In this document: piece by piece, positions 13,714 to 51,777 of the stretch
How positions within the stretch are numbered: position 1 is the stretch's first letter
Layout of the letters: each line of letters begins with the position of its first letter
Source: Indolivaga alginatilytica
GTDB taxonomy: Bacteria; Bacteroidota; Bacteroidia; Bacteroidales; Dysgonomonadaceae
Length of the DNA stretch: 64,000 nt
Assembly: GCF_003201355.1 (NCBI RefSeq)
Contig: NZ_QICL01000001.1
Location: 248,001 to 312,000 of the forward strand
Direction of reading: 5' to 3'
Notes under the pieces: generated by a model
What the model was told of the DNA's origin: nothing
Seen by the model: the letters and a program-made list of their open reading frames with translations, nothing else
Database searches by the model: none
Made by a program: the position numbers and the translations under genes

Positions 13714-15357
13714 TTACATTGAGCTGCAACCTGTATTTGGTTTCAGTTGTTGAAAAAAGTCATTTCCTTTATCATCCACAAGAATGAAAGCAGGGAAATC
13801 TTCCACTTCAATTTTCCAGATAGCCTCCATACCCAATTCAGGGTATTCAACGCATTCCAGACTCTTGATATTGGTTTGAGCCAATATGGCAGCAGGTCCA
13901 CCGATACTTCCCAAATAGAAGCCTCCATGTTTGTGACAAGCATCTGTTACCTGTTTACTACGGTTACCCTTAGCAATCATTATAAGACTGCCTCCTGCCG
14001 CTTGGAAAGCATCCACATACGAATCCATACGACCCGCAGTAGTTGGTCCCATCGAACCACTAGCATATCCCTTAGGCGTTTTAGCAGGCCCTGCATAATA
14101 GATCGGGTGATCTTTGATATACTGAGGCATACCTTCTCCCTTATCCAGACGCTCTTGAAGTTTTGCATGAGCAATATCACGTCCTACGATAATAGTTCCC
14201 GTAAGAGATAAACGTGTAGATACAGGATATTTACTAAGTTCAGCCAATATCTCTGGCATTGGACGGTTCAGATCGATTTTCACGCCACCCGCTTCACCTT
14301 CTTTTTGAAATTCAGCAGGAATCAAACGTGAAGGATTATCCTCCATTTTCTCTAACCAGATACCATCTTTATTGATCTTACCTTTGATGTTACGGTCTGC
14401 CGAACAAGAAACTCCCATACCCACAGGGCAAGAAGCGCCGTGGCGTGGCAAACGGATTACACGCACATCGTGAGCAAAATATTTACCGCCGAATTGTGCT
14501 CCTAAACCAAGTTCCTGAGCAGCTTTCAACAATTTAGCTTCCATTTCCAGATCACGGAAAGCCTGTCCACCTTCGTTACCCTCGGTTGGCAGGTTATCGT
14601 AATATTTAGTAGAAGCCAGTTTTACGGTTTTCAGGTTACTTTCTGCTGACGTTCCACCTATCGCAAATGCAATGTGATAAGGAGGACAAGCTGCTGTACC
14701 TAATGATTTCATTTTCTCGATCAGAAAAGTCTCCAGTTTTCCGGGAGTAAGTAATGCTTTTGTTTCCTGATACAAATATGTTTTGTTGGCAGAACCTCCA
14801 CCTTTGGCTATGAATAAGAATTTATATTCACTTCCTTTAGTAGCATACAAGTCGATCTGAGCCGGCAGATTACAACCCGTATTTATCTCATCATACATAT
14901 TAAGAGCTGCATTCTGAGAATATCTCAAATTGTCTTCCACAAATGTATTGTACACACCTTTCGACAACGCCTCTTCATCATTGCTACCAGTCCATACATT
15001 TTGTCCTTTTTTGCCTACAATAATAGCCGTGCCTGTATCCTGACAGAAAGGAAGGATACCACGTGCCGAAATTTCGGCATTACGAAGAAAAGTGAGTGCT
15101 ACAAATTTATCATTATCACTAGCCTGAGGGTCTGATAAAATTTTCGCCACCTGCGCCTGATGCTCGGGACGTAACAAAAATTCAACATCATGAAATGCGT
15201 GTTGAGCCAAGAGAGTCAAACCTTCGGGAGCGACTTTCAAAACTTCCTGACCTTCAAAGGTAGCGGTAGAAACATAATCTTTAGATAGCAGATAATACTC
15301 GGTAGTATCTTTACCCATTGGAAATGTTTCCTGATACTTAAATGATGGAGTTGCCAT
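13714..15357 (-). CDS. fumA: Class I fumarate hydratase
   Basis: This iron-sulfur fumarase interconverts fumarate and L-malate in the reductive/oxidative TCA branch. At 547 aa it matches the single-chain FumA/FumB length, with the N-terminal [4Fe-4S] domain and C-terminal beta domain fused. Visible motifs are PFCQDTGTA (cluster Cys), [11 protein letters not shown] (second Cys), [37 protein letters not shown] (written in parts; third Cys) and the C-terminal GPTTAGRMD. The start at [10 protein letters not shown] is the natural one. It is monocistronic, and the upstream region carries two reversed palindromic repeats. The gene letter (A or B) cannot be decided from sequence. Confidence 0.93.
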
Positions 15358-15736
15358 GTTAATCAGTTTATAATTAAATAAATAATATCATATGTATATG
15401 CTGTATCCTTCAAGAATAATCAGCTGTCACACTTGCATCTACCAAAGCAATAGGAAGGTCTGAGACCTTTCGTTTATCTTCAACAAAAAATAGAAGAATA
15501 AATAGCCTTAAATATGTATTGACAGGCTTCATCGCAATAATTGGATATTTCTATTATACTTACCAAAGCAATAAGAAGTCCTGCGACCTTAGTTCTTTTT
15601 TTGATCCCTACAAAAATAACAAAAATAATCCGAAGCAAAGGAATCTTAATCACAAAGAATCCGTCACCTAAAATATCTACAAAAACACTAAGGATTCACA
15701 AAGTAAGCCTGAAGAACCTTAAATTTTTATCTAAAT
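15358..15736. repeat. Non-coding gap with two reversed palindromic repeats
   Basis: Two minus-strand repeat copies lie here. One at 15441-15470 reads ACCAAAGCAATAGGAAGGTCTGAGACCTT in two joined blocks; one at 15561-15591 has a core with an extra base (AAGTCCTGCGACCTT). The open frame 15541-15744 on the plus strand is built from the repeat plus low-complexity sequence and is not accepted as a gene. Nothing else is recognised. Confidence 0.7.
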
Positions 15737-44693: not shown

Positions 44694-45542
44694 TCATGTT
44701 TTTATATTTATAAAACCGCCATCAATAACAGCTGTATCAATGCCTGCCCCTTTGAATCCTTTTTCATGCAGAATTTGTCCGTTGTTCATATTTATATTAA
44801 CCCACGCAGTTCCATATTCGGATAATGGCTCATCCGCCTCATCCGATTGTGTCTTCACCTTTAAAGATGCTTCATCATATCTTTTTCCTTGCCAGACTAC
44901 AACAGCATCCGCTACAAAAGGCAATTCTTTATACTTATACATCATCAATTCTTGCGTAACGTGTACAGTCACCGTATTGAGCCACTTACTCTGAGCCACA
45001 ACAACGCCTCCCAATTCTTCTGTTTTTTTAATATAATAGGCAGAGATAGACAAATCGCTATTATCGATGGGGATATTTCGTTTCTTTCTTCTTTCTATTG
45101 CTTTTGGTGAAAGGAATTCTTCGGGCTTATTTATTGAGAAAGAGGATGTGCCTTTATCTCTTAAAGTCAATCGGAATTTATAGTTATTATCATCGGAAAC
45201 CACAACCTTACATTTTGCAGCACCTTTTCCATTACGTAGAGTTCCTGTAATCTCAGTTTCTCCGGCTGCCACACCTGTCACAATTCCTGCTTTGTCTACA
45301 GTAGCAATTCTCTCATCACCGGTACTCCAGTCTACCTCAGCAGCTCTCCAGTCTACATCGCCAACTTTAAGAGTCAACCTATATCCTATGAATGTGCTTT
45401 TAGGGATAGTTATAGAAGAGGGGTCGATTGTAACAACTGACTCAACTTCGGGTTCGGGTGTATCATCACTACACGCCGGAAAAAGAGATGTAAACAAAAG
45501 TAGTATTGCGAACTATGTATTTGTGTTCAAAGTTATAAACAT
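44694..45542 (-). pseudogene. Broken subtilisin-like (S8) protease lipoprotein
   Basis: Reading from the ATG at 45542, codon 10 is TAG (45515-45513), inside an otherwise good lipoprotein signal (FAILLLLFTSLFPAC-SDD). The frame then continues through a BIG2-like domain (TVDKAGIVTGVAAGETEITG) and the propeptide typical of Bacteroidetes S8 proteases (FLSPKAIERRKKRNIPIDNSD, in part; SKWLNTVTVHVT). It stops just after the first catalytic motif, GAGIDTAVIDGGF (Asp). The His and Ser parts of the catalytic domain are absent, and a terminator follows at once. It therefore has a nonsense codon and a 3' deletion; TTG at 45497 could only restart a truncated product. Confidence 0.82.
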
Positions 45543-45625: not shown

Positions 45626-46948
45626 TTACTCCATGCCTTCCTTCCATATTTTGCGCAAAGGCATAAAGAAACGTTCCAATAACGACATATCTTCGGTTAT
45701 TATATCTGCCTGAGCTTCCATTTCGGGCAGATAAGGCAGTTCTTTTTTATAGGTGGTTTTCAGCCCGTCGGGCAAGTCTATTTCAACTACATAATTGTTT
45801 TTGTCTTCGGCATTCTGAGAAGGAATAGTCGATATGCTTCTTACAAAGCCTTTAACCATACCAAACTCATTGTCGGGAAAACTGGGAAAACGAATATTTA
45901 CACTTTGTCCCGGTTTTACTTTACCCGAACGTGTCATTGCCATAGAAGCCTTTCCTATTAATTTACCTGATTTATCGGGTATGACATTAAAGACATTTTC
46001 TCCGGCTACCACATTCTGATTTTCAGTCCAATAGTTTGTAAAAGTAACTTTTCCGTCGATCGGTGTAACGAATACATAATTCTGCTCCCATACCTGAATT
46101 TCGGTCAATAGCTGAGCCATATATGTTTTTAGTTGTGCTTCGAGTGTATTCTTTTTATCGATATATTGATACTCGGTATCCAAGAGGCTTTCTTGCATTC
46201 TTGCAATTTCTATTTGAGTATTCTGCAAAGTACCATTCATGTTTTCGAGTGACAGATACCCTTGCAGGTATTTATTTTTTGTAGCCTCTAAATCCTCCTG
46301 AGAGATGACTCCTCTTTTATTCAGTATCGAATCTCTTGAATATTGGCTTCTGCCGAGCTTCATCTGCTCGTCCACAATATTCTTTTGATGAAGCAGCTGT
46401 TTGTAATACTCCTGATACTGAGCGATCCGCTCCCTCATAAAATCAATTTTCTGGATGTAATAATTCAAACGCTTAAATTCGTGGTATTCGAATGAGGTTA
46501 TATAAAAAGACGAGTACAGGGATTGCATACTACCCAGATTCAAATCTTTGGGAGGTATAGATATAATCGCACTGTCGATATTTACATTCAGGTGAAACAG
46601 GTAGTCTTTAAGCTTGAGGATATCTTGGGTCTTGGCAGGATTCTCGATGACCGCCAGATAGTCTCCTGTTTTTACGATCTGCTCGTCTGTGATATTCAAT
46701 TCTTTTAATTTACCCGACGTTTTAGCTACGATTGGCGCCTGAGGTGTTGTGCCTGTAAGAACCATAGTGGTAACCACAGTATCGGGATATTTAAATACAG
46801 CACTTCCTACAAGGATAATCAGTACAATGACAGCTACAACTGTTATCCCCCTACGTAATATCCAGGAGGGTACGCTACCCAGTACTTCCTGAAACTCTTC
46901 GCTTCTTAATTCTATTTCTTTTTCTATCTCTTTTTCTTGCATATACAT
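45626..46948 (-). CDS. HlyD-family membrane fusion protein of the RiPP exporter
   Basis: I start at MYMQEKEIEKEIEL (46948; MQEKE at 46942 is also possible), giving 440 aa. The longer frame to 47011 reads through a palindromic repeat. A transmembrane helix lies at about residues 34-53, followed by a lipoyl/barrel half (APIVAKTSGKLKELNI, VKTGDYLAVIENP), a long coiled-coil hairpin to about residue 310, and the second half (FVTPIDGKVTFTNYWTENQNV, KPGQSVNIRFPSFPDNEFGMV). It bridges the ABC exporter to an outer-membrane channel (not encoded here). It is the last gene of the cassette. Confidence 0.9.
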   Translation of the reverse strand: MYMQEKEIEKEIELRSEEFQEVLGSVPSWILRRGITVVAVIVLIILVGSAVFKYPDTVVTTMVLTGTTPQAPIVAKTSGKLKELNITDEQIVKTGDYLAVIENPAKTQDILKLKDYLFHLNVNIDSAIISIPPKDLNLGSMQSLYSSFYITSFEYHEFKRLNYYIQKIDFMRERIAQYQEYYKQLLHQKNIVDEQMKLGRSQYSRDSILNKRGVISQEDLEATKNKYLQGYLSLENMNGTLQNTQIEIARMQESLLDTEYQYIDKKNTLEAQLKTYMAQLLTEIQVWEQNYVFVTPIDGKVTFTNYWTENQNVVAGENVFNVIPDKSGKLIGKASMAMTRSGKVKPGQSVNIRFPSFPDNEFGMVKGFVRSISTIPSQNAEDKNNYVVEIDLPDGLKTTYKKELPYLPEMEAQADIITEDMSLLERFFMPLRKIWKEGME

Positions 46949-46976
46949 AATTATTAAGAAACAAGAAGTATCTGAT

Positions 46977-47075
46977 AAGGTCTTAGACCTTTTTATTGCT
47001 TTGGTAAGCATAACAACAATAGTCTGTTATAATCCGAAAGTATATCATTAAATACTTTCATTTACTTACAACATT
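46977..47075 (+). repeat. Palindromic repeat, short-type full copy
   Basis: AAGGTCTTAGACCTT, TTTATTGCTTTGGTAAGCATAA, then ATAGTCTGTTATAATC, and the tail ATATCATTAAATACTTTCATTTACTTA in two blocks. It lies between the exporter and adaptor genes, oriented against them. Confidence 0.8.
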
Positions 47076-47135
47076 ATTTAATTGTAACGATCCCTTGTAT
47101 TTATACCTTATAAAACCATAAAAAGATATGAGACC

Positions 47136-49352
47136 TTAAGAACCCAGTTCCAGTTGATTCTTGACTAACGTATAATACTCCCCTTTTTTATCGGTCAATT
47201 CCTTATGAGTACCTTCTTCTATGATCTTGCCCTTATCCATTACTACAATATGATCGGCGTTCTGTACGGTACTTAAACGATGAGCTACTATTATTACCGT
47301 CTTGCCTTTATAAAACTCATTGAGGTTGTCCAATATCTGCCTTTCATTGTTGGCATCCAAAGCATTGGTTGCCTCATCAAAAAACAAAAAATCGGGATTT
47401 TTATATACAGCACGGGCTATCAGAAGACGCTGCCTTTGTCCCTGACTTACTCCATTACCCTCCATACCTATCTTGGTATTGTATTTCAAAGGAAGCGATT
47501 CTATAAAGTCCTTTATATTAGCTATCCGAACTGCTTCCATAAGCCGTTTTTTATCTACAATATCCTCCCCCACTGCTATATTATTGGCAATGGTATCTGA
47601 AAATATAAATCCGTCCTGCATCACTGCTCCCGACTTTTGACGCCACAGGTGCGGGTTGACATCTTCAATCGAAATATTATCTACTTTTATATCTCCTTTG
47701 TTCGGTTTATAGAAAGCCAACAAGAGTTTTATAAGAGTTGTTTTTCCGCTTCCGCTGGCTCCTACCACTGCCGTTATTTTATTTTCGGGAATTACCAAGT
47801 TGATGCCATTCAGCACATAATCCCTGTCGGCACCATCGTAACTGAAATAAACATCGTCAACACTCAACCTTTTAGAAGAAGGTATTTCGTTAATCTTAGA
47901 ACCTATAGTTTGCTCTTCGTCTTCACGGCTGTGTATTTCGTTTAACCGCTCCAAACTAATCTTGGCATCCTGAGCTGCTTGTACAAAACCTATTACCTGA
48001 CCGATGGGGCCCGACAGTTGCCCGAGTATATAACTGATAGACATCATCATACCGAGTGTTATATCTCCTTCGATAACAGCTCTTGCCGCAATAAACGAAA
48101 TGAAGAGAGAGGTGGTCTGGCTAAAGAATACGGATCCTAATTGTTGATACTGCCCTAACGCCAGTCCTTTTATACTGATTTTAAAAAGTTTGACCTGTAT
48201 ACGCTCCCATTTCCAGCGTTGTTGTTTTTCGCAATTATTAAGCTTTATTTCCTGCATGCCTGTTACAATCTGCACCAGATTACTTTGTACTGCGGAGGCT
48301 TGTGCGAACCGGCTCATATCCAGTTTTCGGCGATACCTGAGAAACAGAAGTATCCATAAGATATATAAAGTATTACCGACCACAAATATGAGCAGAATGG
48401 TGAGGTTATAATAAGCCAGAATAATAGCAAAAATTACAAAATTGGCAAATGAGAAGAGCGTTGTTAATGTCGATCCGGTGAGAAACGACTTGATACGCTC
48501 GTTATCTCCGATACGCTGCATAATATCCCCGATATTTTTCGAATCGAAGAAACGCAAAGGCAGCTTCATCAGCTTAGACAGGAAGTCGGAGATAAGGGCA
48601 ATACTTATTCGTGTATTTACATGGAGGGTTATCCAGTTTCGTATAAACTCAACCGCCAGCTGTGTTACAAATAACACTAATTGAGCGATAAGAATGAGGG
48701 TTATAAAACTCAGGTTACTATTACCGATCCCCTGATCGACAACCGCTTGTGTGAGGAACGGAAATATTAAAGCCAATACACTGCTTACAAGCAAGCCAAT
48801 AATCAGTTGAATTACCTGTGACTTATAGGGTCGCAGATAGCGAAAAAAGTATCTTAGGCTCTTTTGATTGCCATCGTCTTCGGTATCCGATGTATAAAAA
48901 TCGGGGGTAGGCTCCAATAGCAAGGCTGTTCCCACATCTTCGCCTTCGGATCTGGTGCTGATCCAACATTTAATAAATTGCTCTTTGGTTAATATGTATT
49001 TTTCGCCTACCGGATCGGATATTTTGATATCATATTCACCTTTCCGTTTCTTTTTTATCCCGTAACAAACAACAAAATGATTTTGATTCCAATGAAGAAT
49101 ACAAGGAAGCGGAGCATCTTCGACCAATTGCTCAAAGGTTATTTTAACGCCATTGGTGTGAAGTCCTATACTTTCGGCAGCATCGCTGATACCGAGCATA
49201 GATACACCTTCGCGAGTAATAAAAGCTTTTTCCCTCAGGTTCTGAATACTATAACTTCGTCCATAATATTTAGCTATCATCCGTAGACACGTAGGACCGC
49301 AATCCATGGCATCAAGCTGTCTGTAATTGGGAAAGGGGTTAAGCATTGTCAT
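47136..49352 (-). CDS. Peptidase-containing ABC transporter (C39 protease, TMD, NBD)
   Basis: A 738-aa bacteriocin-type exporter that cleaves leader peptides after Gly-Gly and exports the core. The C39 peptidase domain has Cys18 (AMDCGPTCL), His92 (QNHFVV) and Asp113 (ISDPVGEKY), so the catalytic triad is intact. Six transmembrane helices lie at about residues 165-440. The NBD has Walker A GASGSGKTT, signature VSQGQRQRL, Walker B FLFFDEATNALD and the H-loop VAHRLS. Its start lies 3 nt from the end of the hydrolase pseudogene, so it is in the same operon as the precursor and maturase. Confidence 0.95.
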   Translation of the reverse strand: MTMLNPFPNYRQLDAMDCGPTCLRMIAKYYGRSYSIQNLREKAFITREGVSMLGISDAAESIGLHTNGVKITFEQLVEDAPLPCILHWNQNHFVVCYGIKKKRKGEYDIKISDPVGEKYILTKEQFIKCWISTRSEGEDVGTALLLEPTPDFYTSDTEDDGNQKSLRYFFRYLRPYKSQVIQLIIGLLVSSVLALIFPFLTQAVVDQGIGNSNLSFITLILIAQLVLFVTQLAVEFIRNWITLHVNTRISIALISDFLSKLMKLPLRFFDSKNIGDIMQRIGDNERIKSFLTGSTLTTLFSFANFVIFAIILAYYNLTILLIFVVGNTLYILWILLFLRYRRKLDMSRFAQASAVQSNLVQIVTGMQEIKLNNCEKQQRWKWERIQVKLFKISIKGLALGQYQQLGSVFFSQTTSLFISFIAARAVIEGDITLGMMMSISYILGQLSGPIGQVIGFVQAAQDAKISLERLNEIHSREDEEQTIGSKINEIPSSKRLSVDDVYFSYDGADRDYVLNGINLVIPENKITAVVGASGSGKTTLIKLLLAFYKPNKGDIKVDNISIEDVNPHLWRQKSGAVMQDGFIFSDTIANNIAVGEDIVDKKRLMEAVRIANIKDFIESLPLKYNTKIGMEGNGVSQGQRQRLLIARAVYKNPDFLFFDEATNALDANNERQILDNLNEFYKGKTVIIVAHRLSTVQNADHIVVMDKGKIIEEGTHKELTDKKGEYYTLVKNQLELGS

Positions 49353-49355
49353 TTA

Positions 49356-50400
49356 TTAATTTACTCGTTCTGTTATTTGTAAATTTTCAGTCCAAAGTAT
49401 AAAGATCTGAATAATATCTTTAAAAATAATATCATTATAGTCCGATTTTCCATTTACTACTTTCTGGAAACTATGCCCACGATCTACATAAGGTGTTAAC
49501 TCATAATTTTTTTTACCATATAACTCAAAATATATGGGAAGGAGATCGCAACTTTCAGAAGATGGATCAGCAGTTCCATACGCTATGTATATAGGCATCT
49601 TTAAGTGAACAATATCTTCTCTATACGGAGTAGAAAAGCTTCTCCATGCCTGGATTGGATCCCCTTTCATGTTTTAAAACTTTGATTATCAGGATTTATT
49701 CCGCATATAATCTCCCATTGTTTGTACAATTCATCAATATTCTCTTGAGCTTGTTTCATTGTCTGTTTACCTAATTTTGCATCATTTCGTTCCTTTCTTA
49801 TATATTCTGAATAGCGACCATCAGTATCTCCGCTCAAATATCCCACTGCATAAATATCCGGTTTTTTTTAACCAGTGACACCGCAATTTGAGCTCCTTGA
49901 GATATGCCAATGACACTAATTTTTTCCTTGTCAACCCAAGCTTGTTTCCTTAAAAAGTTGATAACAGTACTTCCACGATCAACAAATTTTGTTTTATAAT
50001 AATCCTTTAGATACTTTTCATCGAATTTATTCGGTTCTAAAATATCAGGGACATATATTTTTCGATTGTATAACAGATTTTCAGCAACTATGAGAGGAGT
50101 ATGTGGATGTGAAATCATCACAATATTATAATCTTCATAGAATTCTTCATAAAGACTATCCAAATTATTGATATAGATCGTACTATCGTTTTCAATTATT
50201 AGTGGTATAGGCTGTGATCCTTGACAATATATAATGACCGGTTTTTTTATAGAATCTTTGCTCATTCATATAAAATCAATAGTATCTTTATCGTGATGTA
50301 TAGAATATATCCTGATTTTTTCATCAATCTTAATTTGCGATTTTATATCAGCAGTTGTTAAGAAAAAAAATATTGATAAAAATAGAAATATTGTTTTCAT
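49356..50400 (-). pseudogene. Decayed secreted alpha/beta hydrolase of the RiPP cassette
   Basis: The ATG at 50400 begins a signal peptide (MKTIFLFLSIFFFLTT). Codon 45 is TGA (50268-50266), then the frame continues (MSKDSIKKPVIIYCQG) through the nucleophile elbow VIGISQGAQ. After an eight-A run (T8 at 49862-49869 on the plus strand) the protein shifts frame: adding one base restores KKKPDIYAVGYLSGDTDGRYS and a further 50 residues. A second shift near 49672 restores the C-terminal part with the catalytic Asp (AYGTADPSSE) and His (DRGHSF). There are therefore three lesions in one gene of about 348 codons. It starts 1 nt after the maturase stop and ends 3 nt before the exporter start. Confidence 0.82.
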
Positions 50401-50401
50401 C

Positions 50402-51538
50402 TCACGCAAAATCTTCAATGGTAAGTAATTCAACTTCTATATTTTTTAAGTCTTTGAGATCTGTAAATATCTTGTTTTGTATGCATATAAATAATTCAAT
50501 AAGATCATCGCAATATACAGAAGGATTAGCGAATCCATTACTCGTGGAATATCTTGTTGCTAAATGAAAGCCGCCACATACTTCTTTAGCAATGCACAAT
50601 TGGCATTTATCACACAGTACTTCATCCTGATGGGAATAATAGAATGTTTTCATTAGAGGATGCTCTGCAACATCTTCAAATTTGTTATTGACAATATTTA
50701 AGCCTGTTTTGACAAATCCATCCCCACATATTTTTAAAGAATCAATAACCTCTATTGCTCCGTCTGTCTTGATTGCTACTATGCGATTAAATTTTCGACC
50801 AAGACCTTCATTTCCTCTATCCAATCCTAAAAACAGACTTGATATAATATCGAAAATTCTTATTCTAGGCTTATTTTTATCATTATCCTTATACCAAATT
50901 TCGAACATTTCTGATAACCATTTTCCCACTTTACCTATAGCAATATCCCTCTTTTCATAAGTAGACTCAGGTATTAATAAATCTAGACTAGCAATTTTAA
51001 GGCTCTTATAATGTGCGTAAAGTATTTCTGGAGCCTCTTCTATGTTAATAACCGTCAATATACCTGGTCTTTCGACGAGCTCTATCCCTCTAATTATTTC
51101 ATTATAAGCAGGTAATCTATTGTTTCTATAAATTCTATTTCTAGTAGCTTTTTCGGTTCCATCTAAACTAATACCAAAATGAATATTCAGATTTTTTAAA
51201 AATTCTATCCAAATTTTATCTAGCAAAGTACCATTTGTTTGTAAATTATAATACTTTTCGATATGAGGGAGCAATGTATTGGCAAGGTTTATAAACTCTG
51301 TATAAAAATCTTTTCCAGCAAGAAGCGGTTCACCTCCATGAAAAATAATTACGATGTTATCAATCTCTTTACTTATACAATAATCATTTATTTTTTGCAA
51401 GCTAATTTTCACCAAATCAAGACTTATGATTGGAGGATCCTTTTTAAAAGAGGTATCACCTTGATTAAAAACATAGCAATAAGAGCAATCTAAGTTACAA
51501 ATGCTCGTCGTCTTAAATACAAATTCTTGAAATTTCAT
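50402..51538 (-). CDS. FxsB-like radical SAM/SPASM peptide maturase
   Basis: This 378-aa protein has the radical SAM cluster motif CNLDCSYC (Cys14, Cys18, Cys21) directly after KFQEFVFKTTSI. It continues with IIFHGGEPLLAG, LQTNGTLLD and FGISLDGTE. The C-terminal SPASM part has six or more Cys: CDKCQLC, CGGFHLATRY and VYCDDL. The flow VIDSLKICGDG, FANPSVYCDDLIEL closely follows FxsB-type maturases, which in characterised cases form three-residue cyclophanes on precursor peptides. I infer crosslinking of the peptide at 51622-51777. It is preceded by a strong hairpin after the precursor gene. Confidence 0.9.
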   Translation of the reverse strand: MKFQEFVFKTTSICNLDCSYCYVFNQGDTSFKKDPPIISLDLVKISLQKINDYCISKEIDNIVIIFHGGEPLLAGKDFYTEFINLANTLLPHIEKYYNLQTNGTLLDKIWIEFLKNLNIHFGISLDGTEKATRNRIYRNNRLPAYNEIIRGIELVERPGILTVINIEEAPEILYAHYKSLKIASLDLLIPESTYEKRDIAIGKVGKWLSEMFEIWYKDNDKNKPRIRIFDIISSLFLGLDRGNEGLGRKFNRIVAIKTDGAIEVIDSLKICGDGFVKTGLNIVNNKFEDVAEHPLMKTFYYSHQDEVLCDKCQLCIAKEVCGGFHLATRYSTSNGFANPSVYCDDLIELFICIQNKIFTDLKDLKNIEVELLTIEDFA

Positions 51539-51571
51539 ATGATTTATATTTTACATTATAAAAAACATAAA

Positions 51572-51607
51572 TAATAGTGGACTACCTAGTCTAGATAGTC
51601 CACTATT
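51572..51607 (-). terminator. Hairpin/attenuator between precursor and maturase genes
   Basis: AATAGTGGACTA and TAGTCCACTATT form a perfect 12-bp stem with an 11-nt loop, 15 nt after the precursor stop. On the minus strand it is followed by a weak T-rich stretch. Such partial terminators commonly keep precursor peptide mRNA in excess of enzyme mRNA. Confidence 0.72.
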
Positions 51608-51621
51608 TAGCTCCTCTAAAT

Positions 51622-51777
51622 TTAAGTAGTTTGAGTATGCGATACTTGTGCATGAGTTTGGCTATGACCTTCTGCATAACCTCCTCCTAATAACTTAGAT
51701 TGCATAAATTCATCTAAAACCTCAAAATTTGCTTTCTGATCTAGACTGTCCAGCGAAATCTTCTTTGATTTTTTCAT
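51622..51777 (-). CDS. RiPP precursor peptide with three His-Xaa-Gln triplets, 51 aa
   Basis: Translated by hand: it starts MKKSKKISLDSLDQKANFEV and the leader ends LLGGG at residues 29-33. The remaining 18 residues are YAEGHSQTHAQVSHTQTT. The core holds three H-x-Q triplets (His38-Ser-Gln40, His42-Ala-Gln44, His47-Thr-Gln49) and no Cys, so lanthionine or sactionine bridges are excluded. The double-Gly end fits the C39 peptidase of the exporter gene downstream, and the Lys/Leu-rich leader fits Bacteroidetes GG-type leaders. It is the first gene of the cassette. Confidence 0.85.
   Translation of the reverse strand: MKKSKKISLDSLDQKANFEVLDEFMQSKLLGGGYAEGHSQTHAQVSHTQTT

Follow-up and report, generated by a model that had tools for sequence, protein, structure and literature searches.

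A probable triceptide-type RiPP cassette with a His-x-Gln-rich precursor in Indolivaga alginatilytica

We analyzed a 64,000-nucleotide stretch of the Indolivaga alginatilytica genome (hereafter 'the window') and found, at positions 45626-51777, a probable triceptide-type RiPP cassette whose H-x-Q motif goes beyond chance. Its genes lie on the minus strand in the order precursor, maturase, disrupted alpha/beta-hydrolase, C39 exporter, and HlyD-type adaptor. In the following list, L123 denotes the locus of a near relative.

51622..51777, minus strand: precursor gene, 51 aa (stop counted in the coordinates)
51679..51777, minus strand: leader of the precursor, residues 1-33, double-glycine type, ending LLGGG
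51670..51678, minus strand: triplet Y34-A35-E36, predicted ring 1, at the position of Y-G-E in L123; Y-x-E is recurrent among relatives
51658..51666, minus strand: triplet H38-S39-Q40, predicted ring 2, shifted by one residue relative to W-G-N of L123
51646..51654, minus strand: triplet H42-A43-Q44, predicted ring 3, at the position of Y-A-E in L123
51631..51639, minus strand: triplet H47-T48-Q49, predicted ring 4, at the position of Y-V-R in L123
51573..51607, minus strand: terminator-like hairpin of 16 pairs in the gap between precursor and maturase
50402..51538, minus strand: radical SAM/SPASM maturase, 378 aa, with Cys 14/18/21, SPASM-region Cys 271, 312, 315, 321 and 343, and Phe324
about 49356..50400, minus strand: disrupted alpha/beta-hydrolase gene, with an in-frame TGA at 50266-50268 and two frame changes
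47136..49352, minus strand: C39-peptidase ABC exporter, 738 aa, with peptidase Cys/His/Asp present
45626..47011, minus strand: HlyD-family adaptor, 461 aa as listed, with alternative in-frame ATG starts possible at 46948 and 46942

GC content is 0.35 in the precursor gene, 0.31 in the maturase, 0.30 in the hydrolase, 0.40 in the exporter and 0.39 in the adaptor, against 0.37 for the window. The gap between precursor and maturase measures 83 nt, one fewer than the 84 nt given in an earlier note on this DNA. The hairpin in this gap would fit a precursor output above that of the enzyme. A scan of the region returned four terminator-like sites against 3.3 in shuffles, which is not significant on its own, and the corresponding gaps of the five nearest relatives also fold into stems in a comparison without shuffled control. 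Downstream of the adaptor gene, a frame at 44694-45497 carries a bacterial Ig-like domain (Big_2); it looks short and may be truncated. Elsewhere in the same genome, a second C39 exporter, 49% identical to that of the window, lies near a 461-aa radical SAM frame (G000:C37:12094-14286 and 15079-15519; L205, L003) – probably another double-glycine RiPP cassette.

The precursor core, YAEGHSQTHAQVSHTQTT, contains histidines at residues 38, 42 and 47, each with a glutamine at +2, and lacks cysteine. The earlier note's description of a 51-aa precursor at 51622-51777 with an LLGGG end, three core His-x-Gln triplets and no Cys was thus borne out. Glutamine accompanies core histidines in 3/3 cases at +2 and in 0/3 at +1, +3, +4 and +5 (shuffle p 0.0007), and the window contains 198 frames of 30-90 aa that start with ATG, of which the precursor alone has at least two H-x-Q. 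The three triplets that the note had counted are all H-x-Q, but a fourth, Y-A-E, had been missed; with it, and with His as a ring residue, the core holds four aromatic-or-His-x-polar triplets (shuffle p 0.0002). When His is taken as the ring residue, the precursor displays the aromatic-x-x core of triceptides.

Double-glycine leaders are described, in the part of PMC10885120 that treats them, as having hydrophobic residues at -4, -7 and -12 besides the GG. The window leader has the GG, and a count by eye that starts at the second Gly puts Leu at -4 and -12 and Gln at -7; it aligns with the leaders of relatives and has three residues fewer before the GG. The exporter fuses a C39 peptidase domain (PF03412, 111.4 bits) to an ABC transporter, as expected for double-glycine export, and the peptidase Cys, His and Asp, which we take to be the catalytic residues, align with those of relatives. 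The note's account of a C39 exporter with Cys/His/Asp and an HlyD adaptor encoded on one strand is upheld. No exporter was seen in the 14-16 kb around the related loci L123, L131 and L141, so export must differ at L123. In the cluster of L123 (L160:8498-9391), a DUF6734 protein (PF20508, 330 bits) comes after the hydrolase.

Judged by profile scores, the maturase is kin to cyclophane-forming enzymes and lies inside neither of the two curated families nearest to it. Its best NCBIfam models are YhhB (7e-78, 262 bits) and FxsB (2e-75, 253.9 bits), and its three best-matching families all form cyclophanes, giving it the kinship to three-residue cyclophane formers that marks triceptide enzymes. Assignment to YhhB (NF041707) was rejected, with the score falling below the cut-off of 445 (control Vibrio YhhB, 521.8), as was assignment to the FxsB family (TIGR04269; cut-off 370, controls 452.8 and 420.5) and to XyeB (TIGR04496; 166.5 bits against 450). 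The label 'FxsB-like' in the earlier note therefore holds as kinship to the second-best model, but not as family membership. Maturases of five scanned relatives likewise score 299-346 bits for YhhB and 276-340 for FxsB, below both cut-offs. Two further candidate systems were discarded: the GG-Bacteroidales rSAM system (TIGR04148/TIGR04149), for which the maturase scored 66 bits against 300 and the precursor 12 against 25, and the His-Xaa-Ser system (HxsB, TIGR03978), at 51.3 bits against 370. Among solved structures, ChlB comes nearest by sequence (3e-45), and the modelled maturase fold (mean pLDDT 76.6) matches ChlB with peptide (9gmc/9gm3) at E 7e-31 and TM 0.86.

A search of 150 genomes returned one close homologue besides the window's own, L005 at 44% identity, with some match (E 0.001) in 105; scanning named genomes, from which 80 loci were kept, added Hallella multisaccharivorax (L036), H. 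mizrahii (L037) and a Bacteroidota MAG (L038) at 44-46%. Profile searches were run on overlapping genome sets. At 1e-60 they found relatives in 3/393 genomes of the order (those with the window, L005 and L123), in 8/395 genomes of the phylum, own counted, in 1/3 genomes of L123's family, and in 5/121 genomes of one genus of another order; for that genus a search at 1e-90 gave 19/398 genomes, and for two families, also at 1e-90, 4/259 and 22/246. Within the window's genus, four of the five remaining genomes have distant matches only (2e-46 to 1e-41) and the fifth has none at 1e-40, which makes it probable that the cassette was acquired from elsewhere. Among viral contigs, the A1 profile picked up five relatives, most of them distant, and the L146 maturase described below picked up none. 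On plasmids, relatives appeared only below 60% identity (23 records in one search, 22 in another), and four small genes read there, two from Spirosoma and two from Calothrix, contain no H-x-Q. In a tree of 42 rows, the window maturase has the Hallella pair, L038 and L123 as its nearest companions (5 rows, 100/94), and this group sits in a 13-row clade (99/93) of Y-x-E-type systems.

The hydrolase gene introduces a complication that the earlier note had overlooked, as it had other signs of decay and, separately, the 16-pair hairpin. Pieces of the window gene match L038 residues 35-186, 188-236 and 258-346 in three frames, with a TGA in the first, and the genome yielded no other copy. Sequencing error may account for this, but three disruptions within one kilobase favour a dead gene. 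The hydrolase is open and in the same place in L038, L005, L123 and L124, where the sequences were compared (GHSQG or GHSEG), and also in L131, L132 and L141, judged by place and look. In L125 (461-1505) it was seen in two overlapping frames, so its loss may have occurred more than once and need not imply loss of the peptide. Candidate roles for the hydrolase are trimming, immunity or another step.

Given this broken gene, it is conceivable, if rather doubtful, that the whole cassette is decaying, that the peptide is matured poorly or no longer, and that the H-x-Q tail reflects drift. The shortened leader points the same way, as does the maturase itself: Phe324 occupies a site that is Gly in 39/39 aligned maturases, and the enzyme deviates at 4/53 conserved columns, compared with 1-2 for its clade mates (remoter enzymes reach 11). 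Yet precursor, maturase, exporter and adaptor are all open, the cluster cysteines of the maturase are kept, and the regular H-x-Q spacing is unlike drift and recurs in L146; the L125 hydrolase likewise weakens the step from a lost hydrolase to a lost peptide. The window copy may nonetheless be weak or dead, which makes the L146 pair, whose maturase keeps the Gly, the better test of H-x-Q.

We compared the precursor with those of its relatives. L038, L123, L005, L036, L037, L124 and L131 share the precursor-maturase pair, and L038, L005 and L124 have all five genes in identical order; where the window has H-x-Q, these relatives have W-x-N and Y-x-E/D/N triplets (H-A-E in L131). Among the five nearest, the tail after the GG reads YGEWGNSNYAESTYVRR in L123 and NVAPEWGNSNYAESTYVRKP in L038, and ends in ...KWGNTNYAESTRPIGR in L037, ...DWGNTNYCESTRPVRR in L036 and ...KYDNVAYPDTTYVRK in L005. 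Their triplets are W-G-N, Y-A-E, Y-C-E, Y-D-N or Y-P-D, and H-x-Q is absent from all five. This absence, and the occurrence of Y-x-E in most near relatives, would suit an arrangement in which only the conserved Tyr-Ala-Glu is crosslinked and the H-x-Q tail stays unmodified, as a metal-binding segment or a spacer.

Three comparisons make that arrangement unlikely. Without gaps, triplets start at core positions 1, 5, 9 and 14 in the window and 1, 4, 9 and 14 in L123, placing H-A-Q on Y-A-E and H-T-Q on Y-V-R, so that two of the three His triplets can be read directly on Tyr triplet positions of this one near relative. At least three coinciding starts arise in 0.0002 of shuffles, a value uncorrected for the choice of L123 as the best match among five near relatives; each of the remaining four shares only two triplet positions with the window. 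In the sister clade, L131 has R-T-H-A-E-S-T at the site that reads R-T-Y-T-E-S-T in L125, L141 and L142 and R-T-Y-A-E-S-T in L124, L132 and L143. Finally, L146 encodes two precursors, ...VHGQTFSESGGHGQTHSQSGHSQTHSQTRN and ...KPHSQTHSQSGSGHSQTHSQSTR, followed by a maturase, a C39 exporter and an HlyD-like frame; Gln stands at +2 of His in 5/5 and 4/4 cases, making nine H-x-Q triplets, and neither core contains Tyr. The earlier note had counted an absence of H-x-Q from every homologous precursor against its own reading, and L146 supplies the pattern that the five nearest relatives lack. The L146 maturase falls outside the 13-row clade and is without a firm partner in the tree, implying that H-x-Q arose more than once or travelled with the precursor.

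That the triplets are instead modified by some other chemistry – at other atoms, or by hydroxylation, epimerisation or a His-containing ether – is improbable: radical SAM/SPASM enzymes are versatile and this maturase lies outside the cut-offs of characterised families, but its three best families form cyclophanes, its top structures are ChlB, and three-residue rings agree with the spacing from i to i+2.

Among the loci collected, His follows the triplet rule in some members at most. Across 6,619 ATG-started frames of 30-110 aa from 207 loci (overlapping loci counted), six different peptides have at least three H-x-Q/E. These are the precursor of the window, both precursors of L146, and one peptide each from L007, L052 and L058, where the spacing is irregular. 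For N/D/E/Q near possible ring residues, we used 39 precursors picked by hand, one to several per type, and 56 candidate strings picked by tags, three of them stray (L051, L099 and the second peptide of L143). Trp has such a residue at +2 in 25/31 cases in the 39 precursors (3/31 at +1, 2/31 at +3) and in 31/42 in the 56 strings (6/43 at +1, 3/42 at +3). For Tyr the counts at +2 are 31/57 and 31/77, or 42/57 and 48/77 with Arg included, and for His 15/27 and 15/32. The window and L146 supply 12 of the 15 positive His cases, leaving by subtraction 3/15 in the 39 set or 3/20 in the 56 set, too few to make His a general rule. Left out of the 39 were repeated types (L144, L145, L153, L156, L175, L182, L184-L188, L190-L195, L200), L198, the plasmid YhhA, XyeA, HaaA, FxsB-side and Calothrix peptides, the re-fetched L171, L172 and L177, and, for want of a clear candidate, L128, L147/L155 and L174; the L180 peptide is that of L199.

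Beside related maturases, repeat precursors carry W-x-E (L173), Y-x-Q/E (L179, L151) or W-x-N (L181-L183), and some relatives' precursors have no clear triplet pattern. The repeat precursors of L173, L179 and L181-L183 form a natural series of triplet variants. Upstream of the maturase in L128/L163, a precursor-like frame has a stop before a W-P-E-S-T stretch resembling Y-A-E-S-T.

Several known systems resemble the cassette in part. YhhA/YhhB (NF041705, NF041707) provides the best maturase model and has the same layout of Y-x-Z followed by H-x-Z; YhhA of a Vibrio plasmid contains YDRTHNRHNR (Y-D-R, H-N-R, H-N-R), and the window has Glu or Gln in place of Arg. Unlike that system, the window combines a double-glycine leader with a C39 exporter, and its precursor gives no match to the YhhA model NF041705 at E <= 1 (control Vibrio YhhA 61.1 against 36). 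An enzyme beside a haaA gene also scores to the FxsB family (TIGR04269), the second-best model, but in two FxsB-family plasmid clusters that we viewed, precursors and accessory genes differ from those of the window. XyeA/XyeB of a Xenorhabdus plasmid (L169) shares the double-glycine leader, C39 exporter, HlyD protein and cyclophane-forming enzyme; its core has WVN, FAR and WDK, and XyeB is 25% identical to the window maturase. ChlB (PDB 9gm3, 9gmc), titled a multiple cyclophane synthase, is 28% identical; the portion of PMC12636437 that describes it gives its radical SAM domain a fused HEXXH hydroxylase, and the window has no such hydroxylase.

Cyclophanes on histidine are themselves established. 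In the sections of PMC11002830 that cover these enzymes, the rings made by HaaB and ScaB run from His C2 to C-beta of Ala, with ScaB taking Tyr for His; those made by YhhB start at Tyr C3 or His C2 and end at C-beta of Arg; and other rings link Trp or Phe to Asn, Asp, Arg or Ser, or Tyr to Asp (YxdB). The earlier note's reading of a His-containing triceptide cassette thus stands on the kinship of the maturase to YhhB and FxsB, the ChlB fold, the triplet precursors beside related maturases, and L146, but His cyclophanes were already published. With the triceptide class and His rings known, what appears new here is the H-x-Q substrate pattern. In the literature searched we found neither a Gln- or Glu-closed ring nor this maturase group; two papers outside that search (JACS 2022, 144, 11580 and the JACS 2025 ChlB paper) may list H-x-Q. 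No paper found there joined H-x-Q wordings with 'cyclophane', and among the titles listed for cyclophanes with Bacteroidota names, none concerned this group. The main text of a Bacteroidales RiPP survey (PMC10352776) has zero mentions of cyclophane, triceptide or FxsB.

Taken together, the locus is probably a triceptide-type RiPP cassette whose substrate is rich in His and has four predicted rings, and H-x-Q very probably represents a variation, in the substrate, on the aromatic-x-polar motif of triceptides. By analogy with characterised cyclophane formers, we infer that the triplets are crosslinked and which atoms take part. The maturase would bind the leader, and a deoxyadenosyl radical would take hydrogen from the beta carbon of each triplet's third residue; that carbon would then join the ring of the first residue. 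The predicted rings are Tyr34-Glu36, His38-Gln40, His42-Gln44 and His47-Gln49, with 2 H lost at each of the four. The C39 exporter would cut after the glycines, and the peptide would be secreted with the help of the HlyD protein as a product bearing one phenol and three imidazole rings. Our guess is that its role is metal-binding or antagonistic.

More broadly, we propose tentatively, with the odds slightly against us, that radical SAM enzymes of Bacteroidota make serial His-Gln cyclophanes, so that the secreted peptide would carry crosslinks on three imidazoles and on one tyrosine, and that Tyr-x-Glu was swapped for His-x-Gln/Glu on two or three branches (the window, L131 and L146). If so, these swaps offer ready-made pairs in which to look for the determinants of the ring residue. 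The family pairs its enzymes with W-x-N, W-x-E, Y-x-E, Y-x-Q, H-x-E and H-x-Q substrates, which makes substrate choice directly testable. The His cyclophanes described in the relevant sections of the review end at Ala or Arg (PMC11002830), and closure at Gln or Glu would widen this chemistry. A small secreted peptide that holds several imidazoles in place would make a natural metal-binding scaffold.
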